64,000 nt of DNA from NCBI GenBank assembly GCA_024195265.1, contig JAJLRJ010000004.1, positions 4,116,659 through 4,180,658 of the forward strand. Direction: 5' to 3'. The notes beneath the pieces were generated by a model, which had not been told where the DNA came from, ran no database searches, and saw nothing but the letters and a program-made list of their open reading frames with translations. This document shows positions 1,451-54,682 of the stretch, piece after piece. A program made the translations under genes and the position numbers. This DNA is from Dendrophyllia cribrosa. Taxonomy: Eukaryota; Cnidaria; Anthozoa; Scleractinia; Dendrophylliidae. How positions within the stretch are numbered: the stretch's first letter is position 1; each line of letters begins with the position of its first letter.

Positions 1451-31171
<29,721 letters not shown>

Positions 31172-37884: not shown

Positions 37885-37943
37885 AAAGTGGTCCCAAAAC
37901 ATCGCTTCTCTGGCTGCGAAATTATTTTGGGACCACTTTTGTC
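37885..37943. repeat. Short hairpin with GTGGTCCCAAAA arms
   Basis: AAGTGGTCCCAAAA is mirrored as TTTTGGGACCACTT about 25 bp later. The same GTGGTCCCAAAA phrase recurs at 38191, directly at the insertion point of the 8-kb element. Confidence 0.75.
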
Positions 37944-38274
37944 GTCGCATGTTCTTCACGTTTACAGAACTACGGCCCCATCGATTTCTCTGGCAGACAG
38001 CCTTTCCCTTATCTTTCACCATTGTAAAGCTAATGCGTTCGCCTTTCTTCCACAAAATGTGGATTTCGAAGGCAGAATTTATGTCACGATCGATCAAAAC
38101 ACTTCGCCTCGAAACGGCCGCCATTTTAGTAAAGGGGAACCCAGACCTCACTCGACATAGTTGGGAACGGTTACCAAGCTAGATCGAAAAGTGGTCCCAA
38201 AAGACACAGCGGAAAAACCGCCACGCATGCGCCCTGAAAATCTTGACCGTTACAAATTCAAAATGGCGGACGAC

Positions 38275-39063
38275 AAATCGTATTTTGCTACGTAATTAGG
38301 GACCAGTTTGCAACCGTTTACATGAGCTGGAGACTGTGCCTTCACGCCGAATTTCAAGTTCAATTCTTTGACGTTTGTGAGTTCGTTTCTTTCAGTAATT
38401 CGACTTGGTTTTCCAAACATTTTGGCCTTTGCTTTACGGACCGTAACGACAGCTGTATATGATGATAGCTGCCCCAATCGTCCGTGGTTTTTTCCATTTA
38501 TTAAGGTCATTCATAAATGATTAAGGCCAGGACTTCGGTTGTCGAAAGTTTGTGAATTTTCAAAGAAAATATCAAATATGACTTTTTTTTCGTTCTAATG
38601 ACTTTTTGTAAATGCCTTTGAAAGATGGAAACCTAAATACATGCGAAGGAGTCTCACTGGCTTCGAATTTCGTCTTCATCTTCACGCTTACCTTCCCGAC
38701 GAGCAGTCTTACGAACGGTAAGCAGATCATCTTGTTTATCTGGGCTGTTGTCTATGCCTTTTCTTGTGTTATGAGATTTTCTCATCAATGTAAACAGCTT
38801 GTTTCTTATAAGCGTTATTTTCAAAGTAATGTATTTAAACATAACTTGGATGAATAAACATTTTTTGAGTTCAAGATCTTTCTTGTTGTTGTTCTTGTTC
38901 GTCCATCTTATCTAGTTGTGTCGCGAACGCGGCGACGATTTCCCGCCTTTTTCGTCGGGACGCACCCAATACGATGTCAATATCAATTAGGCTGGTGACT
39001 TGACAGCAAACCGGCTAAACTGCAACAAAAACATGGCAGTTGTGTTGACGTTTTTTTAAGAAA
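38275..39063 (+). other. 5' flank inside the 8-kb element
   Basis: It is the presumed promoter and leader of the element's gene. A CAAAATGGCGG motif lies at its left edge. Short - strand frames (38250-38510 and 38654-38842) are coding-like only in part and have no recognisable family. No TATA box was assigned. Confidence 0.4.
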
Positions 39064-39450
39064 ATGTTTTGTGCTAAAGCACCCAGAGTTTTACGGAGCA
39101 AGGAAAATGTTTTGGCAAGTCCTCAAAATATAGATTGTTGGGGGAAAATTTCCTGTTTGACTAAAATAGAGTCTTTAAACTGTGGATTTCAAGAACGTGT
39201 GAGCCTCTGTGTGCGGCATTACGAAGAGGAAAAACAAAAACACCTAAGTGTCTGCTGTTTCCCGACACGCTCCTGCAATGACAAGTGCTCTGGCAAACTT
39301 ACCGCTTGTCCACAGCGTCTTATTACAGTGTTCGAGGGATTGTTCAGTGGGGGCAAGATGCCGTCGGGCAGAATTTGTCAAACCCATTTAATGCAGGCCG
39401 ACAAAGATGCTCGTATCATTGAAAACAAAAATTATATTTCTCCCAGAAAG
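39064..39450 (+). CDS. Transposon protein exon 1: Cys/His-rich N-terminus
   Basis: 129 codons from the first ATG after an upstream in-frame stop. Cys and His residues are spaced as SLCVRHYEEEKQKHLSVCCF, then RSCNDKCSGKLTACPQ and GRICQTHL, suggesting one or two zinc-binding modules suitable for DNA binding. It ends at AAAG followed by GTGAGC. Confidence 0.75.
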
Positions 39451-42400
39451 GTGAGCCACTCTGCACATTTGTTTTTTTATTATTACTATTTTGCAAGAGA
39501 GCAAAAGTCGAAAAAATATTTTTTTTGTAATAGCGTCGACATTCAAACAGTCCAAGGGAAGACACCGGAGATGTGAAGGTCTCGCCAAGGGATCCCCCAA
39601 AATGGTGTGAACTAATTAAGCAGCTCGAGAGGCTGGAGCATGAGAATGAACGCTTAAAGGAAAGGTCCAAAAAGTTAGGTATTGAAAACTCAAACCTGAA
39701 GGACCAAATTAAAGGTGTGTTGAATTTTAATGGGTTTGTAAAAATTATTAAAAGTTTAAATGGGTTTCCATAACATTTAAAGGGTTTTTCAAGCCAGCTT
39801 TTTCATGAAACATTTTGTTTCAGTTGAGACCCACTTAATTGTACTGTTGATAAATTCAAATGCACCTCACAACTACTTTAAATGCTACAATTTGACCGGT
39901 CATCTGAAGAAGTCTAAATATAGTCTATAGCTATTTTTAGCAAGGATAACATTAACATTTGCAGATATGGAACAACAAAACAAGGACAAACAGAAACATC
40001 TTGAAGAGGCCAAGGCTGAGATTGACAGTCTTTTAGAGAAAGTCAGAGGTACCAGAATATAACATGATTGCCTTCAGTCGAATTCACACTGTGAACTATG
40101 TATTTTTACCCAAGGCATAAAAAGCCTAAATGCTGTACTAGTACAAACTGACAGAGATTTTTAACAACATACAGATCTTAAGGAAAGCAGACCTCATGAT
40201 TGGATTTTGACTGAATCAACCTGTTTTTTTTTATAACATTTTACTTCGCTAATATTCCCCCTAAGCTCACAGGGAAATTTTTCTACACAGGTTTTAAGGG
40301 GGAAAGATACTGTTATTTCAACTAAATAAATAATAATATTTTGAAATGAAAATAAACATGGAGAGAGCAATTACTTTAATTACACCCTGTAGATTCTGTA
40401 AATAAAATTAACAATAACTTTTAGGTCAATCATCATTCAGTGAGTCAGTGCACAGTTTCCACAAGGCACTGACACATCATTACACAATGGGTGGCAAACA
40501 TCTGTACAACCCCACTGACATGGAAGAGTTTTGTGAAAGTCACGCTCCGGATTTATTCAAGCAAGTGTACACAGCAATTGTCAATGACTCAAAGGAAGCA
40601 CCTTCAGTAAAAAGGTTGGAGCTGCAAAAAATAAGGACTGTTGCTATTCTACACAGTCTGTGTTTTTATCGCAATCAGGTATTTTCCTAGCAATAAAATA
40701 TTTCAATATTGACTTCGTGAACTGGTGATATAGTAAAGTGGTTTTGTTTGTATGTTCAAATTTTCGTAAGGTTCTCTTGTAAGGCAATATAACTATATAA
40801 CTGCTGTAGATTTGTACTCTTTAGTGGTTTTAATCCACAAATTATCATAACAGTAGGAGAGGCCAACATTGCAAATGACCACTCATTGTTGTTTTAACTG
40901 TAAGAATCTACAACTGGTACTTTTCCCAAGAAGAATGTAATTTTTAAATGAACCACATTTTTTTACTAGAAAATTTGCCCCATTCAAAAAGCAAATGGTC
41001 TAAACCTGAAGATGAGTGGTGCAAGCTACAGTGCATTGATGTCTGGAATGATCCTTGGCTACAGTTGCCACCCAAAAACTGTAAGGAATCATGAAAAGGC
41101 ATTAGCAGAAGCAAACAAAAAGGAAGTTTCAAAGAGAATAATGGAAGCCACAGCTGTAAGGAAGATAATTAAGTTTAATTTTTTTTTGTGCCAGAATAAA
41201 ACTTACATGTAGGCTGACTCCAGCAAATCTTGCTTAGCTCCACCATTAGCATATTTATGCCAGTTCCCCAACTCATCATAGCATTGACAATGAGGATAAT
41301 GGCTTACTGAAATTTTCTTTACAGTATCTTTAAATTTTTGGTTAGTCTTCTCAAAAAAAAAACATGAAGGTAAAAAATGGACAGGTTTTAGAAAAATTCC
41401 TCCCATACACAGTCAAACATATATTAAACCATCCAACTTAGCCAAAGTACTTGTAGATGTAGTGATATTCCTTATTGTACATACAGCTGCTAGCCATTTT
41501 GACTTTGCACAGAATACTGCTGAAGTTTAACACTACATGTTTTCTTCCACGTGCTGGATGTGAAACTTCAGTTCTACCAGGTCCAAAAATAAAAAATGAC
41601 CTAACAGTTCAAGGAGACAATGATATACATTCACAAATTACTTGGCTTTCATTCCTTTTTTAGAAAAAGCAGTTTATGCTCCTCATTGAGGATGATATTC
41701 ATTTCATTCATACAATCGGCCAGCCTACAACCAGTACCACGAGTACTGCTTGGCACATGTGCACAGGCTTACTGGATGTGCAAGACCAAATTCCAGCAGT
41801 GCCAAAACCTCAGAACACCAGCAAGCTTCATCGCACTGTTCCAGTAACCATGAAGAATGGCACAGTAAGACAGTGTAGGGGTGGCATTGATGTAACATCC
41901 ATACTGCAACACTTTTCTAAGGCTTTAAATCAGTTCTTTTCTTCAAGCTATTTAAGTTCCTTGCCAGTGGGACACAGAACTTTGGACATGACAAATGCAC
42001 AGCAAAGTTGTGAAAACCTGAGGTAAAAAACAGAAAAAAAGCAAGAAAAACAACTCTTATAAATTTGTCTCTCAAAATAATTTTATGTTTAATAATTACT
42101 CTGAGTTGGCTTCAGATAGGCAAAGTGCGCGAAACAGAGAAAACATCTACACTGCCTTCAGATTCCATCACAATTTCGTCAGGCTAATAAAATTCAGAAA
42201 AGAAATATCTTTCAGAACTCATAGAAGATATGTGTTTTGTTCAATTTCCTGCTTTTTTAACAAGGTTTCTTTGAACAAAAGTCACTCACTAAGTTGCTAG
42301 GTTTTGTAAACAAAAACCGTGGTGGGAAAATTCTGTAATGCCTGTGGGCAATCAGAGTGTGCATACTATTGCAGCCATATAAAAATGCTTAATAAATCAA

Positions 42401-45400
42401 CACATTAAAGAATAAGAGACTGATAAGCATTTCATTAAATAAATAAAATAAATAAGTACATCAATCCCTCTTTTCAGAGTGTATTCAGATGAAGACAGAC
42501 AGGAGTTAGAACTCCTGAGGACAACGTGGCTCATTGATGAGTTTGAACAAACCCTCAAAAGTGTCTACAACTACCGAGAGGCACTCACACACCTTCTAAG
42601 GGAGGCTCCCACACTAGAGGAGTACTTGCAGAAGTTTGTTGTCGTATTGAGTGGCGACTTCCCCACCTGGAAATATAACAAGATTATTGCAGAGGTTTGT
42701 TACATGTCAATATACTGTAATTCTGGGCTTAAAATTGGTACATGTAGTTGCATGATTATCAGTGGTGACTTAAAATATTTGGCCAAGACCGGCCACTAGA
42801 TTGTTGAGGTTTGATTGCCAACGTGGGACTACAAGTATGATACAAAAAGTAGCAATGTATATTGAAGTGTGATACAGTAAAGGCCACCATTTTTCCAGGT
42901 TAGACTAAACAGGTTCTTACATAAAGGATATATAACAGAATTTTAAGCTAATTAGGTTCTGAACAGGTTCTTTTTTTCTGAAGAAAAAAATCACTGGTTT
43001 AAGATGCAAATTTTAGCCTAACTGGTTCCTTAAATAGCGGTTCTTACTCATGGGTTTTACTGTATTACATGTATAACAAACTTAACTAGACTGCCATTGT
43101 TTGTTTTCTTGTTATTCTTCAATCCACAACATTACTCCAATTCCTACTCCAACATATTAACAACATTTTTTCTTTGACTTTATGGTACATTAAGTGGGAC
43201 CCAGTGGCAGAACCAAGAAGTACAATACCTTCTTTGATTCCATGGCAAGGCCCATTTCACGTTTCGCTAAATGCTCAGGAATCCACTGTGTTATTGTTCA
43301 GACCACTTTTTGCAAAGCTTTACAAGAAGCTATTTGGAAGAAACAAGGTAATTATAACCAAATGTTAACAAAGAGAGTAAAGTAAAAATAAACAAATACA
43401 GTGTTGTACATCACTGTAAGTATATAATTTTTATATGTGCATGGTAAATTACATTGTATGTTGACTCCTAAGTATAAAAAAGAATTTATTGAACAATCAG
43501 TCACTCGGTGTAATCAAATATGTTATTTTGACACCAAATCATAAGCTGATTGAGTTCCTAGCTAAAAAAATATGTTAATTATATTATAAAATTCAAGAAG
43601 AGTGATGCATAAATGATATCCTGATCCACTGATTGAAAATTATTGTACACTGTAGGTGATGCCAAAAAGACCAAAACCTCATCGCATTAGTACACTTACA
43701 ACCACAGCATTTGGTGGTTGGACCATCATACGTGATGCTGTCCTCCAACAGTTTGGACCAACATGCAAGGACACACAGTACCTTTCCCTTCTACACCTGT
43801 TTGATGAAGTGTTGCCCTTGGTCTTTTTCTTTTATTGTACTATTTTTAGAGGTGGAGATTACAGTGAGTGGCTCCGTGCCACATTTCGCATGGCTCTGAC
43901 ATTCGTAACCTTTAAAAGAAAAAACTACGACAAGGCTATTCTTTGCCAGCTGTCTGACATCCTGTATCATGCAGCAGAAAACAAAGACCTGGTGGAAAAC
44001 ATCAAGCTGTTTCTACATGCATTCACCGAAAAGAAGGTTGAAATATTTCATTCCGTTTTAAGAAGGTTTGTTAAAACATGACAATTACTTGTATAATTAC
44101 ATTTACAAACAAATTTAAAGCCATAGAGGATAATAAACATTCAGTGGTAGGCCCTTTACCAATTTCATTCAAATCATATATCACTGTATCATACAAATGC
44201 CATCATTCAAATCTTATTTATTGTAATAAACATTTTTGTAGAGATTATTTTACCTTTTGTTAATTTCCTAGAAATGTTCCTGTATGGGCAGTTCCTGCTG
44301 AGATCCAAACAATGGCACATGCTTTGAGTGGCAGGAGGTTCAATGATGACTTTTTGGAGTGGTTTCTTCCCGAATATGCAAGAGGCCGAGGTACCAAGCA
44401 TATGGCTGAACTGGTTTTTGCTGCTGCAGAATTCTTCATTGAATTGTTTTGTGAAGTCTGGGCCACACAGGGTCAGACTAACAAGATTCCTAGAGGAAGG
44501 AAGAAATTTCAGGTTAGTAACTACATGTTTACTGGCTCCTAGAGTCTTTAGGTTTACTCTACCTGCCCATTCAGTGTACATGATACTTAAATAAAAGTAA
44601 TTCACAACACATTCAGCGAATGGCATTCACTTAGGGAAATATGCAGGGCCAAAAAGCTAACATAATATCTAGACAACTTATTTTTTTTTGTTTTGTTTTT
44701 GTTTTGAAGTCATATTATTTACCTGCGCTTGACGCAACAATGGATCAACGGTGCCTTCCCCTGGGCTATTTGTTTCTGGGAAAAGAGCCGGATCCCATGC
44801 TAGCATGTGACCTTAGCACATGCCCAGTCAGCGATGACTACAATCACACAGTTGTACGTCTCACATGTGGCCACACATTCCACAAAGGATGTTTGTTGCA
44901 GGAGTCTGAACATGATGTTGAACACAACTATGCAATGGATCACACAGTGAAATGTCCTGTTTGTTATGGACCATTGCAGAAACACATGCAAGAACTTGCG
45001 ACCACGTTAAACCGGTAAGATACAGTGCTGTATACATGTAATATAATTGACCTATTATTTGATGTATAAATGTATTATTGACATATTGATGCACATGTAC
45101 TTTCCTAAGAAAAGTGCCATCAGGAATCAAAGTACTATTAATTTAAATTGGACAAAAATCGAGTGCCAGAATAATTTAAATTCTATTGCGTTTTTTGACA
45201 TCCTTTTAAGGCTAAAATTATTTAGCAAAGATGTAAGTAACTATCCGTGATAACCCCAACAACAATTTCTTATCAGAGCCAGAGAAAATGAATTTCGAAG
45301 CTCACAAGCTATAGGCACAATCTCATGTGATTTTTTAAAATCGTCTATAAAGCGATTCAGTGGAACTTCGAAATTTGTTTTCGATGTTTGGTGTTGTTAG

Positions 45401-45871
45401 AGAAGATTTCTTTTGATAATACGTCACACAAAAGTTTGCAATAAGGTGTAAATAATTTTGGTTCGTACTTTTGTCTACTAAATACTCAAAGTCCTGGCGG
45501 ATTCCACCTTAAATATTTATTACCAACCTCCATCCGATTGTTTGAAGTTCTATTTCAAACAGAAACGATGACTGACAACAATAACTGCGTAAAATCGTTT
45601 CAAAAAATGTACCTACCTGTGACAATTCGATGTCTTGTTGATTTCCAAACTTAGATATCTGGCAGGAGGCGCGGACGATGTTAGAAATGATGATGATGAA
45701 GACGACGATGAAGACACCACCAAAGATGAAACAGATGATGAAGAAGACTTCAGTGACGACAACATCGATGACAAAACGTACAAGGAACAAGTCGAAAAAA
45801 TTCAGCAACACGCGGTCGCGCGTTTCTCGTCCTTAACCAGGATAAACAGGAAAGATGAACCATCCGCCTAA
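39064..45871 (+). CDS. Large transposon-borne protein: Cys-rich N-terminus, coiled coil, unknown core, RING finger
   Basis: Exons: 39064-39450, 39534-39714, 39965-40048, 40425-40678, 40970-41155, 41664-42022, 42478-42694, 43195-43347, 43656-44065, 44272-44512, 44710-45014, 45655-45871. All junctions are GT-AG and every phase fits, giving 998 codons including the stop with no disablement. Order: Cys-rich region (about 20-115), coiled coil (about 145-215), core (about 220-824), RING (857-909), acidic tail (about 926-997). The core contains MLLIEDDIHFIHTIGQPTTS, GPFHVSLNAQ and KKVEIFHSVLRR. These resemble a widespread, multicopy, uncharacterised invertebrate family that I loosely associate with DUF6589-type proteins. 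A transposase role is inferred from the inverted ends. The exact catalytic residues are not established. Confidence 0.82.
39534..40048 (+). CDS. Transposon protein exons 2-3: coiled coil
   Basis: Exon 2 (39534-39714) encodes ELIKQLERLEHENERLKERS and IENSNLKDQIK. Exon 3 (39965-40048) encodes KHLEEAKAEIDSLLEKVR. The heptad pattern of Leu and charged residues predicts a parallel coiled coil, likely for dimerisation. Phases are 0-1 and 1-1. Confidence 0.8.
40425..44512 (+). CDS. Transposon protein exons 4-10: core of unknown family
   Basis: Seven exons encode about 600 residues of mixed alpha/beta character. Conserved-looking strings are HLYNPTDMEEFCESHAPDLF, GASYSALMSGMILGYSCHP, MLLIEDDIHFIHTIGQ, FVVVLSGDFPTWKYN, IPWQGPFHVSLNAQES, FGGWTIIRDAVLQQFG and FTEKKVEIFHSVLRR. 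The acidic residues in IEDD, SGDF and VEIFH are candidates for a metal-binding DDE-type site. This is inference from spacing and from the element's ends, not from recognised homology. Confidence 0.7.
44710..45014 (+). CDS. Transposon protein exon 11: RING-H2-like finger
   Basis: Zinc ligands follow the pattern C-x4-C-x14-C-x-H-x2-H-x2-C-x20-C-x2-C, ending in KCPVCYGPL. The CGHTFHKGC and CPVC boxes are characteristic of RING-H2 ubiquitin ligases. The first pair has four instead of two intervening residues. It would give the protein potential E3 activity. Phases are 0 in and 2 out. Confidence 0.85.
45655..45871 (+). CDS. Transposon protein exon 12: acidic C-terminal tail
   Basis: RNDDDEDDDEDTTKDETDDE and the following residues form a strongly acidic stretch, then a short amphipathic segment and the stop at 45871. 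Such tails occur in nuclear and histone-binding proteins. The acceptor is AACTTAG. Confidence 0.75.
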
Positions 45872-46247
45872 GAACTTTCCTCGTATCTAAATCTCGCAAC
45901 TGTCCCATTTGTCAATGGCCGGAGGATGAAATGTGGAAGGTGAACAGTTCCACACAAAACCACCAAAAACACGGAGGGCAACAGCCTTCCTTCGCGTTCG
46001 TTCCACTGCATACGATGGCTAAAAACTGTTATTTCATGAGCCATTTAAAATGAAAACGCCAGTGATAAATCCATTAGTTTTAGTCAAAACCTAAGAAAGA
46101 TTGAAGGTAACTTGAAATATTCCCGAGATCAAATATTATTGTGTTTTCTCTATTCTCGAACCGCGTGGTCATCCGCCATTTTGAACTCAGTTAACGATTC
46201 GCGCAGGCGCATTACTTGGTAATTACGTCATAACAATCAGCCAATCA
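45872..46247 (+). other. 3' flank inside the 8-kb element
   Basis: It is the presumed 3' UTR and subterminal right end. The inverted YY1-like block (GTCATCCGCCATTTTGA, 46168-46184) mirrors the left end. No gene is seen. Confidence 0.55.
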
Positions 46248-46275
46248 GCGGTTTTTCCGCCTTGTCGTCCCAAAA

Positions 46276-47222: not shown

Positions 47223-47259
47223 TTAAGGAGTAACGCAATGAATTAAATTAAACTTGATC

Positions 47260-48690
47260 CCTTCTTGGCCACGTTTCCCCGGTTTCCCTGGTTTCCCTTT
47301 TGCCCTTCTTGCCCTGTTTTTCCTGGTTCCTGGTTGCCCTGTTGCCCGTGTTGCCCTGGTTTCCCTGTTGCGCTTGTAGCCCTGTTCCTTGTAACCTTTG
47401 TTGCCCTGTTGCCTTTGTTGCCCTTGTTGCCTTGTTGCTCTTGTTGCCCTGTTGCCTTTGTTACCTTTGTTGCCCTGTTGCCCTTGTTGCCCTGGTTGTC
47501 CTGTTGCCCTTGTTTGCCCTGTTGCTTTGTTGCCCTGTTTGCTCTGTTGCTCTGTTTTGCCCTGTTGCCATTGTTGCTCTGTTGCTCTTGTTGCCTTGTT
47601 GCCCCTGTTGCCCTTGTTGCCCTGTTTGCCCTGTTGCCATTGTTGCTCTGTTGCTCTTGTTGCCCTGTTGCCTTTGTTGCCGTGTTGCCCCTGTTGCCCT
47701 TGTTGCCCTGTTGCCCTGGTTGTCCTGTTGCCCTGTTGCCCTGGTTTCCCTGTTGCCCTTGTAGCCCTGTTTCTTGTAACCCTTGTTGCCCTGTTGCCTT
47801 TGTTGCCCCGTTGCCCTTGTTGCCCTTGTTGCCCTGTTGCCCTGTTGCACTGGTATCCCTGTTGCCTTTGTTGCCCTGGTTGCCCTGTTGCCCTTGTTGC
47901 TCTGTTGCTCTTGTTGCCCTGTTGCCTTTGTTGCCCTTGTTGCCCTGGTTGTTCTGTTGCCCTTGTTGCCCTGTTGCCTTTGTTGCCCTGGTTGCCCTGT
48001 TGCCCTTGTTGCTCTGTTGCTCTTGTTGCCCTGTTGCCTTTGTTGCCCTTGTTGCCCTGTTGCCCTGGTTGTTCTGTTGCCCTTGTAGCCCTGTTTCTTG
48101 TAACCCCTGTTGCCTTTGTTGCCCCGTTGCCCCTGTTGCCCTTGTTGTCCTTGTTGCCCTGTTGCACTGGTAGCCCTGTTGCCTTTGTTGCCCTGTTGCC
48201 CTTGTTGCCCTGGTTGTCCTGTTGCCCTTGTTTGCCCTGTTGCCCTGTTGCCCTGTTTGCCCTGTTGGCATTGTTGCTCTGTTGCTCTTGTTGCCCTGTT
48301 GCCCCTGTTGCCCTTGTTGCCCTGGTTGTCCTGTTGCCCTGTTGCCCTGGTTTCCCTGTTGCCCTTGTAACCCTGTTGCCCTTGTAGCCCTGTTTCTTGT
48401 AACCCTTGTTGCCCTGTTGCCCTTGTTGCCCTTGTTGCCCTGTTGCACTAGTAGCCCTGTTGCCTTTGTTGCCCTGGTTGCCCTTGTTGCTCTGTTGCTC
48501 TGTTGCTCTTGTTGCCCTGTTGCCTTTGTTGCCCTTGTTGCCCTGGTTGTTCTGTTGCCCTTGTTACCCTGTTGCCCTGTTGCCCTGGTTTCCCTGTTGC
48601 TCTGGATTCCCTGTTGCCCCTGTTGCCCTGTTACCCTTGTTGCCTTTGTTGTCTTATTTTCCTGTTGTCCTTGTTCCTCTTGTTATGAAA
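47260..48690 (-). repeat. 1.4-kb minisatellite of 8- and 9-bp units, Gly-X-Y-like on the - strand
   Basis: On the + strand units TTGCCCTG and TTGCCCTTG alternate with variants (TTGCCTTTG, TTGCTCTG). Both strands are open for hundreds of codons because the units lack stops. The - strand reads GQQGNKGNRGN-like tripeptides interrupted by frame changes wherever an 8-mer replaces a 9-mer. The less repetitive edge on the - strand (GKTGQEGQKGNQGNRGN) keeps a collagen-like Gly-X-Y register. It is probably an expanded repeat, possibly born in a collagen exon, and not a gene now. Confidence 0.85.
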
Positions 48691-48840
48691 TAACCCAAAG
48701 GGTCCTCGCTTTGATAGCTTATTATAGTCTAATATTTCGATATACAGTCAACTCACTTAAGGCGGAGACCCCTGTAATGCGGAAACCTCTCTAAAACATA
48801 AATTATTGGCTGGTTAAGGCCTAATTTGACCTGTTAGTCT

Positions 48841-51165: not shown

Positions 51166-52700
51166 AGAGGAGGTTAACAACCACGCACAATACATCGTTT
51201 GAACTTTTTTATTTCAAAATATTTAACTTGACTTGTAAACGTCGTCCTCACTGACTGACATCTCCTTACTGACTGACATCTCACTGACTGAGGCAATCTT
51301 GGCAATTCCAGACTCCCACTGGTGCTTTTTTCACGCCTGCACAATTGCTGTAATAGAGGGATCCAAGATATATTAACGCATTTATCATTTACGATGAAAT
51401 ATTTCAGTTTATTGGCGGAAATGCTCTGACTTATTAAATGATATTACTTGGAACTTTGAAAGAGCCTTCTTTCCTGTGAACGAGGTAAATATATTTTGTG
51501 TTTTTCCAATACATGTAATTACGTCACATAACATTACCAGAACCACTTCTTCTACGCTTCGACTTAAATGGCTTTGTTTATGGAACTAGCATTTTTATTG
51601 CACACCGGAACACCTAACAATGTCAGGCTGAACACTTTAGCCTTGATCTATCGGTTTGCTGCAAATATGCGGTTTCACTCTAAATTTTCCACAAATACAT
51701 TTATTTTCCCGCTTTACTCTTTTTGATATTATTATTCACATTCAATCTGATTTGAGCTCTTTGAAGGTTACTTACAAGTGAAACCACTTCTTACAGGAAG
51801 TACACTCTATCCAGGAAAAGTGAGTTGCCTATGACCTGCCTGGAGAGATGTATTGCTTGCACATGTAGCATTGTTCACCAGATTCGCTGCCTATACAACA
51901 GGATTAAATTGGAAAGAAATTTAAAAAACTTAAGTGGAATTTGTACTTGAAATATCTGTAAAATAAAACAAACTAAAAGATAGAATCAGAGGGGAATGGG
52001 GCAAGTGAATGACAAAACGGTGGATAGATTACGTCTACCCGCGTTTGTGCCTTATACTCACTAATTACAGTTAAAGTATCATGATGAAGTTTCATTGATT
52101 TTATTATGGGATTTGTTAGAAAACGTTTCCTCTCCTGTGTAAACTATGTAGACTGAATAACCTGTTCATTCATTATGCCATTAACCATTGACATGCGATT
52201 CATCGCCCTTCATTCCGGACGGTCGACGGAAGTTTAGTTTGGTATATGTTTTCTCAATCCGCTTTTCCCTACTAATGATCTCGGAGCCTGGAATAGTCTA
52301 TTGTGGATTCTGCGCGACAGAATGAAACAATGAACATTTTTTTCCAGCAAAGAATAAGAAAAAGTCCAACCACGAACTAATTTTCGTTCGCCTTTCCCTC
52401 GGTTCATAAAACCTGGCTTACTATCTAGCTATCTTTATTGAACAATATTGGTCAATAACGCACATATGAAGTAGATCACACTCCCAGAACAACCTCCACT
52501 AGTCTTTTTGAACAGAAGTGTGAGTTGTTCTGCGTCCCCTTTAGTTTCTTTAATTCAGATAAAGAAAGATTATAAAGCCGATTAGGCAAACGGCAAATAG
52601 CCGGCGATCATCTACACTCACTCATATAAGCCAAAGATCTTGAACACGATTACTTGAAAGTTAAAACCCTACTTGTTGCTCTGCTTCCTGTAGCAGGTTT
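51166..52700 (+). other. Stretch without a recognisable gene
   Basis: No domain, tRNA or strong repeat was recognised. It includes a TGACTGACATCTC direct repeat near 51250-51290. Confidence 0.5.
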
Positions 52701-52751
52701 CACTTTTCACACATCATCATGTTAACTACAATGCATTGTTATCTACAGGTC

Positions 52752-53190
52752 ATGTCTAAAAGAGGGAAAGGTACGTGCGCTATATGTCAGCAACAGTACG
52801 GTAACAGAAACAAACCCGCGTATTGCTCATGTGGTGCTTATCTTGGTGGGCATTTCATTCCAAAAAAGAAAAAGATAATTTCTGTACCAGAGGTTGTAGA
52901 GTTAGTGAGGAACATTTATTCCGCAAAAACCAGTTCCAGAAACGACCGCTGTCTCGTAATGAAAGAAGGAAAACAATGGATTTGTTTGCGTGCTAATTGT
53001 CTGAGGGACAGGGCGGCCTTTGTGTCATCAGGGAACGCAGACGGGTTTGCCTGTAATCATATTAATCTAGCAAGAAAAGGCACTGTTTCAAAACCCACAA
53101 ATATCTGGACACCAACAGAATCAGATATTGACAACTACAAAGGTGGCCAGTCAGTGCAGACACAACTCAAAAGCGTCGTTCAGGGATTAA
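52752..53190 (+). CDS. Zinc-ribbon-like protein of unknown function, truncated by a repeat
   Basis: An AG at 52747-52748 precedes ATG 52752, which begins MSKRGKGTCAIC. Paired Cys residues (CAICQQQYGNRNKPAYCSCG, then CLVMKEGKQWICLRANC and ACNHI) suggest two zinc-binding sites. GGHFIPKKKK precedes a helical part. The frame runs into the 1.5-kb repeat at 53192 and stops at 53270 with repeat-derived residues, so the natural C-terminus is lost. I have seen similar Cys patterns in uncharacterised cnidarian multicopy proteins, but I assign no function. Confidence 0.5.
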
Positions 53191-53191
53191 C

Positions 53192-54682
53192 ACTATGGCT
53201 TAAAAAACCGTTCAAAATTATTCTGCCTATTTCCGATATCGAAAATTCTAATTTCGGGGTCGGGAATTAGTTATCGACATCGGGATTTCATTTCCTATTT
53301 TCAGGGTCGGGAATTAATTATCGACATCGGGATTGGGTTTCCTATTTTCGGGGTCGGGATTTTTCGATGTCGGAATTTGTTTTCCTATTTTCGGGGTCGG
53401 GATTTTTCAATGTCAGAACATCCCCGGCAGAAAAGACTGTCTGCATTTTCATTTCCGATGTCTGAATTATCCGATGTATTATTCCGTCAAATACTACAGT
53501 CGAGTCCAGTTATTTTGTATTTTTTTGTTATTTCTTTATTCATTTTTATATAATTTTTTAGGATTAAGGATGAAGAAAAGTGATAGATTTTGCACCATTT
53601 CAGTCTGTTTATTTATGTCCTAACTCTGTAAAAAATGATCAGAATGTGCTGTTATTACGTTGAATATAGCTAAAATTATTTAATTGCCCAGCAACTACGA
53701 ATTTCAGTAAATAAATCACTTGTATTCTGTAATAAAATTTCTTGGTTATGACAAAATGAAATAAAGCTGCAGCTTCCCTTTTTTAGTTATTTTAAATATT
53801 CTTGTAGCTCAAAGACTGTTAAAATATTTTCAATTCTGTAAAAGATTTCGGAATGAGAACTTGAAAACAGAAACTCTACAAGGGCGGTTATCACAGTCGC
53901 CTTTAGAAGTCTTAGAAAGAAGATGAACCACTTGTTATGTAATTTAACCATGTAAAGTTAGTTCTATAAAAAAAATATTACGTTACCAAATTTGGGGTTG
54001 AAATGACATAAGGGATAACTTGTAAACACCAGAATAAAGAAAAGGGTCTCTCTCTCTTTATTCTTTTACTGTCTCTCGAGGTCTTCAGTATTTCATTTCA
54101 TTTAAATGCACGTACGTTTAAATATCATTTTCCTAAAGCACTTAGCATTACAGCATTCCCCTTGTGCTTCCTGATAAATATTGTCGATTTCACCCATGTT
54201 TTTCAGTTTTTTTCTTCAGAATTATCGAGCGCATTCCTTTTGTATGGAAAATGCGGTTGTTCTGGTGGTAAATAAAATGGAACAGACTTTTTCACTGGAA
54301 ACTTTTCGGAGAAAAAGGAATACCTTCAGAGGTAGTCCTCTTTTCTCGTTTTTGCCGAAATGTTCGGAAAATCCCGTACCATCCCACTAGTGCCATGCTC
54401 CTTGATGAATTAAAGCCCATGTTTGTTATTGTAAATCGTTCAAAAAAGTACACAGATTACTCAAGAAAGAAAAAGCAATGCCGTGAAAAAGGAACACTCT
54501 CTTCCCGTTTCGTTTTGATCGAGGACAAATTTGTCCTGTTCCTTTTAACAGGACATTCTACCCTGTTTTTCCATTCAAATGGAAAGCGCCCGCTTCTCTT
54601 CCAAAAATACACTTTTTTCTGTTCGACCCTGGGCCATGGGGGACAATGCGGATGTCTTAGCAGGGAGGGCTCTGGAGACAAA
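53192..54682 (+). repeat. 1.5-kb direct repeat, copy A
   Basis: It starts ACTATGGCTTAAAAAACCG and ends GGAGACAAA, nearly identical to 55599-57178. Its first 250 bp contain tandem TCGGGATTT/GGGGTCGGGAATT units of about 55-60 bp. It lacks about 40 bp (around 54010) present in copy B. The short frames are not convincing. Confidence 0.9.

Follow-up and report, generated by a model that had tools for sequence, protein, structure and literature searches.

The systems closest to the element described here each have their own hallmark: THAP and P-type transposase domains in the P element, hAT dimerisation and BED domains in hAT elements, 5-bp duplications in Transib, and an N-terminally located RING finger in RAG1. 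In the comparison literature consulted (PMC10045372, PMC12730594, PMC4455052, PMC3706591), target-site duplications are given as about 8 bp for the Drosophila P transposase (PDB 6p5a/6pe2), usually 8 bp for hAT (Hermes, PDB 4d1q) and 4-10 bp for IS256/MuDR, with 9 bp for maize Mu, and a C/DxxH motif is reported for MuDR, P, hAT, Kolobok and Dada. Here we describe an 8,064-bp element at positions 38203-46266 of a 64,000-nucleotide stretch of the genome of the stony coral Dendrophyllia cribrosa (the window, i.e. the whole stretch that was analysed), which makes 9-bp duplications and whose gene appears, from predicted structure and conserved residues, to specify a cut-and-paste transposase. The element is very probably an autonomous DNA transposon in which a single spliced gene specifies a DDE transposase of RNase H fold, separate from the Pfam transposase families and a candidate for a new superfamily, novelty being understood relative to Pfam.

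A recently mobile DNA transposon

The element is flanked on each side by the same 9 bp, GTCCCAAAA, at 38194-38202 and 46267-46275, and is bounded by 19-bp terminal inverted repeats, GACACAGCGGAAAAACCGC on the left (38203-38221, plus strand) and GACAAGGCGGAAAAACCGC on the right (46248-46266, minus strand), which are identical at 17 of 19 positions. Both ends are evident from the sequence and from family copies, the left one also from a genome pattern count, and the coordinates, flanks and ends given in a preliminary description of this locus were all exact when the sequence was read again. By eye, AAAGTGGTCCCAAAA occurs in an inverted repeat 300 bp upstream (window 37885-37943) and also at the insertion site (38188-38202).

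The genome (627 Mb) has 27 matches to the first 200 bp of the element, of which 21, including the window, are 92-100% identical; these 21, i.e. the window and 20 fetched copies, constitute the family copies studied here. Both ends lie inside the fetched piece in 17 of the fetched copies, while L011 and L021 hold additional DNA between their ends, so that the far end was retrieved separately, and L028 lacks the left end and hence is not testable for a duplication. An exact 9-bp duplication adjoins the ends in all 20 testable copies (window included), and all 20 duplications differ from one another, with 58% G+C and a mild symmetric tendency as raw composition. Sequence likeness among the copies stops at the element's ends, and the end pattern GACANNGCGGAAAAACCGC has 47 exact matches in the genome as opposed to 0 for a reversed control; a partial copy is located at C7:1018-1023k. 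Inverted repeats at its termini, together with target duplications of one length at several sites, identify the element as a genuine DNA transposon that has moved recently. The duplication first described for this single locus proved constant in length across the family, and the genome search with the element's end that the preliminary description had proposed returned other copies, each with its own duplication, at different sites, which rules out the lone sequence or single-copy gene that it had named as a possible refutation.

The amplification of the family is recent. Three other full-length copies differ from the window copy by 1 (L010), 8 (L009) and 12 (L022) substitutions, plus short indels; L022 is a second full-length copy with an uninterrupted 2,997-base frame, and L009 and L010 are frameshifted. 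A further 12 copies of 6,880-6,882 bp, which are 4-7 substitutions away from the window copy, share one identical internal deletion that joins element position 4557 to 5736, the two sides overlapping by a 5-bp microhomology. The absent segment corresponds to window 42760-43937 (1,183 bp including the microhomology, ends placed within 5 bp) and takes out exon 8 of the gene and the beginning of exon 9; the same deletion is also found in L021 and L028, bringing the total to 14 of the 20 fetched copies. As a consequence of this loss the derivatives should be non-autonomous and moved in trans, which is apparently how the deletion derivative was mobilised, and the low number of substitutions indicates that mobilisation was recent, in keeping with the recent mobility claimed at the outset. 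Shorter derivatives, L013 (4.7 kb) and L027 (2.4 kb), each have their own 9-bp duplication. The frame had initially been called undamaged, and it is indeed open with no internal stop; however, exon 7 of the window copy is one codon shorter than in L009 and L022, near the conserved GDFPTW motif, so that the word refers to an open frame and not to proven function. The shorter form of exon 7 is shared by L010 and the 12 measured deletion derivatives. The element may be active at the present day.

The gene and its predicted transposase

The gene lies on the plus strand and comprises 12 exons, all introns being GT-AG, with 997 codons and a stop codon, in agreement with the multi-exon frame originally modelled. 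Exon 1 (39064-39450) encodes an N-terminal Cys/His-rich region (C-x2-H ... CCFP ... C-x2-H), a putative zinc-binding DNA-binding domain whose Cys/His residues have similar counterparts in P0001 and, in part, in P0003. Exons 2 (39534-39714) and 3 (39965-40048) contain the first and second parts of a coiled coil, with sub-threshold Pfam matches of coiled-coil type at residues 134-229, and are followed by a helical domain that precedes the catalytic core, beginning in exon 4 (40425-40678) and continuing in exon 5 (40970-41155). The first RNase H strands are found in exon 6 (41664-42022), together with the motif LIEDDIH and D374/D375 (D374 codon 41691-41693); exon 7 (42478-42694) contributes the GDFPTW motif and D544 (codon 42656-42658), exon 8 (43195-43347), which is absent from the 6.9-kb derivative, PWQGPFH and H578 (codon 43258-43260), and exon 9 (43656-44065) the helical insertion, TEKKVEIFHS and E736 (codon 44040-44042). 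Exon 10 (44272-44512) covers the region following the core, exon 11 (44710-45014) a RING finger with Cys/His residues from about 44806 to 44964 (Pfam PF13445, 27.1 bits against a cut-off of 25.2), and exon 12 (45655-45871) an acidic tail and the stop codon.

Family D, a related family of the same genome, holds the core in a single 1,102-codon frame. Aligned with the 12-exon model, this frame runs gap-free over junctions 4, 5 and 9, shows small gaps near junctions 6 and 8 and is interrupted at greater length at 7 and 10. Most of the splicing modelled for the core is thereby supported, junctions 1-3 and 11 being left unsupported by this alignment. The intron richness previously remarked upon consequently holds for the 12 exons here but not for the core of family D. 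When the window was compared to one copy of another related family, B, 11 of the 12 exons were recovered in order, and over 932 codons (stop codons skipped) the proportion of nonsynonymous differences (pN) was 0.193 and that of synonymous differences (pS) 0.712. Synonymous divergence is saturated and the pN/pS ratio approximate; still, a pN well below pS points to purifying selection on the gene.

AlphaFold models of two homologues, in accordance with the structure search originally suggested, have a fold of RNase H type that is interrupted by a helical insertion, and the D, D and E are conserved in alignment columns, making D374/D375, D544 and E736 the likely catalytic residues. The two models find their best solved matches in P-element, Hermes, IS256-type, Transib and RAG1 enzymes, which puts the predicted fold in one broad group with those of P, hAT, IS256/MuDR and Transib/RAG1. 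The early impression that the core is unlike a MULE, hAT or piggyBac enzyme stands with respect to sequence models, whereas the predicted fold falls in the broad group just named. When solved structures were searched by sequence, no transposase came up, and the matches were of RING type apart from a few others (best E 0.073 with P0001 and 0.29 with a profile).

We propose that the transposase would dimerise via its coiled coil, and that the dimers would bind the 19-bp ends, possibly via the N-terminal Cys/His region. In the predicted core, whose last strand is separated from the helix of the catalytic glutamate by an all-helical insertion, D374 or D375, D544 and E736 would cleave the transposon ends and insert them into the target with a 9-bp stagger, the repair of which by the host would leave the 9-bp duplication. 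The same enzyme may mobilise the internally deleted derivative in trans, and a role as ubiquitin ligase, directed at the transposase itself or at host factors, is conceivable for the RING finger.

Placement among DDE superfamilies

Homologues at 47-58% identity, annotated without function, are found in the stony corals Desmophyllum and Porites, and others at 37-39% in Nematostella and Actinostola; a profile search adds Oculina, Acropora and further contigs. The named relatives are all anthozoan, and one single-sequence scan of viral contigs with P0016 gave no relatives. A relative at approximately 30% identity also makes 9-bp duplications, and the midpoint of a 21-protein tree separates a group of 4 from one of 17, family D being in one and the window in the other. 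The 9-bp duplication was present in 3/3 copies tested of family B and in 3/3 copies of family D with both ends found; a fourth family D copy lacks its right end, which in D3 (C18:22637-22643k) was looked for at the expected position and not found. The ends read GACA(A/C)(A/G)GCGG in family A, GACAAGGCGG in family B and AACAGGGGG in family D, and family C (L039, L064, L065) has the left end AACAAAGGAGACTTTTG, with the end pattern AACAAAGG derived from the left end only. Family B-like places are located at C16:30411, C2:18965 and C6:808, further family D places at C19:41367, C12:2357 and C20:38476, and other related matches at C18:23253k and C17:27348k (62%) and at C16:34756k, C12:43317k and C16:19430k (36-42%).

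The family D frame contains a RING-like Cys/His cluster, recognised by eye and not reported by Pfam. In L037:2207-5512 (G000:C18, family D) and L039 (G000:C1, family C) a RING-like cluster is followed at the C terminus by a domain bearing the motifs GSNACT and SHPHG/SHSHF, which by eye resembles a Cys-His protease or deubiquitinase; a Pfam scan of the family D frame gave no match.

No Pfam transposase family matched the window protein or family D above cut-off, nor did any among the families listed for the homologues, and the preliminary assignment to no known superfamily holds up by sequence. The element was not placed in MuDR, P, hAT, KDZ or DUF6589, since a defining sequence feature of each was looked for and not found: for KDZ there was no Pfam match of the window protein at E<=1, and the duplication is 9 bp as opposed to the 8 bp of Zisupton, while for DUF6589 the window protein had no match over the curated cut-off. 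Two single-sequence searches and one profile search, whose candidates were word-limited, returned 2, 7 and 20 proteins, none with a transposase label or a Pfam transposase domain. Under the Repbase rule, a separate superfamily is one that does not converge with others at E<0.005 in iterated searches (PMC4455052). We recognised no paper on this transposon family in searches of an open-licence literature library.

On our best reading, the element represents a lineage of superfamily rank, as yet unnamed, among the DDE transposons of P/hAT/MuDR type, with a RING finger at the C terminus of its transposase. A fuller version, to which we give slightly less than an even chance, would be an unnamed eukaryotic DDE superfamily, recently mobile in a living anthozoan, that has constant 9-bp duplications, RACA-type ends, a C-terminal RING finger and a fold among those of P, hAT, IS256/MuDR and Transib/RAG1, with the branch of families C and D apparently (by eye) adding the Cys-His protease-like domain and thereby uniting in a single transposase a ligase and what may be a deubiquitinase. 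The finger is C-terminal here, unlike that of RAG1, and sets the element apart from the P element; there is no sequence match to Transib or RAG1.

The strongest competing explanation, which we consider a serious if lesser possibility, is that the lineage has already been named in Repbase or Dfam, e.g. within Academ or Zisupton, given that Repbase holds many superfamilies. DUF6589 proteins probably belong to Academ-like elements, and those of the same genome share by eye a like order of GD, H and E motifs; moreover, one of 23 homologues (P0015) matches DUF6589 below threshold (E 0.0082, 15.3 bits against a cut-off of 27). However, none of the matches listed from a whole-genome search for DUF6589, which gave at least 102, lies at this element, profile comparisons with same-genome DUF6589 proteins reached a probability of 3% or less and were not significant, leaving the suspected kinship unsupported, and Zisupton duplications are 8 bp. 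One such protein, L051 (G000:C2:20012000-20016800; a 1,434-codon open frame matching DUF6589, with an XPG-type nuclease-like segment by eye), which may be Academ-like, matched the family over 61 columns at a probability of up to 3%, with E 0.015-0.018 in one comparison; this match was not used as evidence.

A divergent P or hAT member whose duplication has shifted from 8 to 9 bp appears unlikely. THAP, P-type, BED and hAT dimerisation models were all absent from the Pfam matches of the window protein (E<=1) and from those listed for the homologues, the best-matching transposase family changes between the two structural models, and the 9-bp length is identical in both deep clades tested. We regard with no less doubt a divergent Mutator (MuDR/MULE) member, which would have in common with the element the general fold and a duplication length within the MuDR range. 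Against it, no recognisable MULE transposase domain came up when the window protein was scanned with Pfam at E<=1, or among the 25 of 29 Pfam families listed for the 23 homologues, the C/DxxH position reads GxxH (G in 23/24 filled rows, H in 21/24), and model 1 is matched better by the P element and Hermes than by the Mutator type (ISCth4, PDB 6xgx, being a solved Mutator/IS256 enzyme). Finally, a host gene cluster or segmental duplication, which the intron number, purifying selection and RING domain might suggest, is rejected with near certainty on the basis of the many insertion sites, the 20 distinct duplications and the loss of similarity at the element's ends.

New DDE superfamilies are uncommon, and if the proposed lineage is real it would place a further RING-bearing transposase beside RAG1 and would aid tests of kinship among P, hAT, MuDR and RAG-type enzymes. 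Near-identical copies, two full-length copies with open frames and an abundant deletion derivative make activity directly testable, and the element may constitute a potential gene-transfer tool for anthozoans.

Other features of the window

Elsewhere in the window, retroelement remains lie on the minus strand at 16453-20861, in which the frame 17789-19027 has reverse transcriptase RNase H domains by Pfam and the other two frames scanned have no match. At 52665-53270 on the plus strand there is a Cys-rich 201-codon open frame with no Pfam match, and 47223-48794 is occupied by a long array of low-complexity repeats with open frames on either strand (GNQQ/ATR-type reading). Pieces of a Harbinger-like transposase are located on the minus strand at 25789-26741, with DDE_Tnp_4 over and HTH_Tnp_4 below the cut-off.
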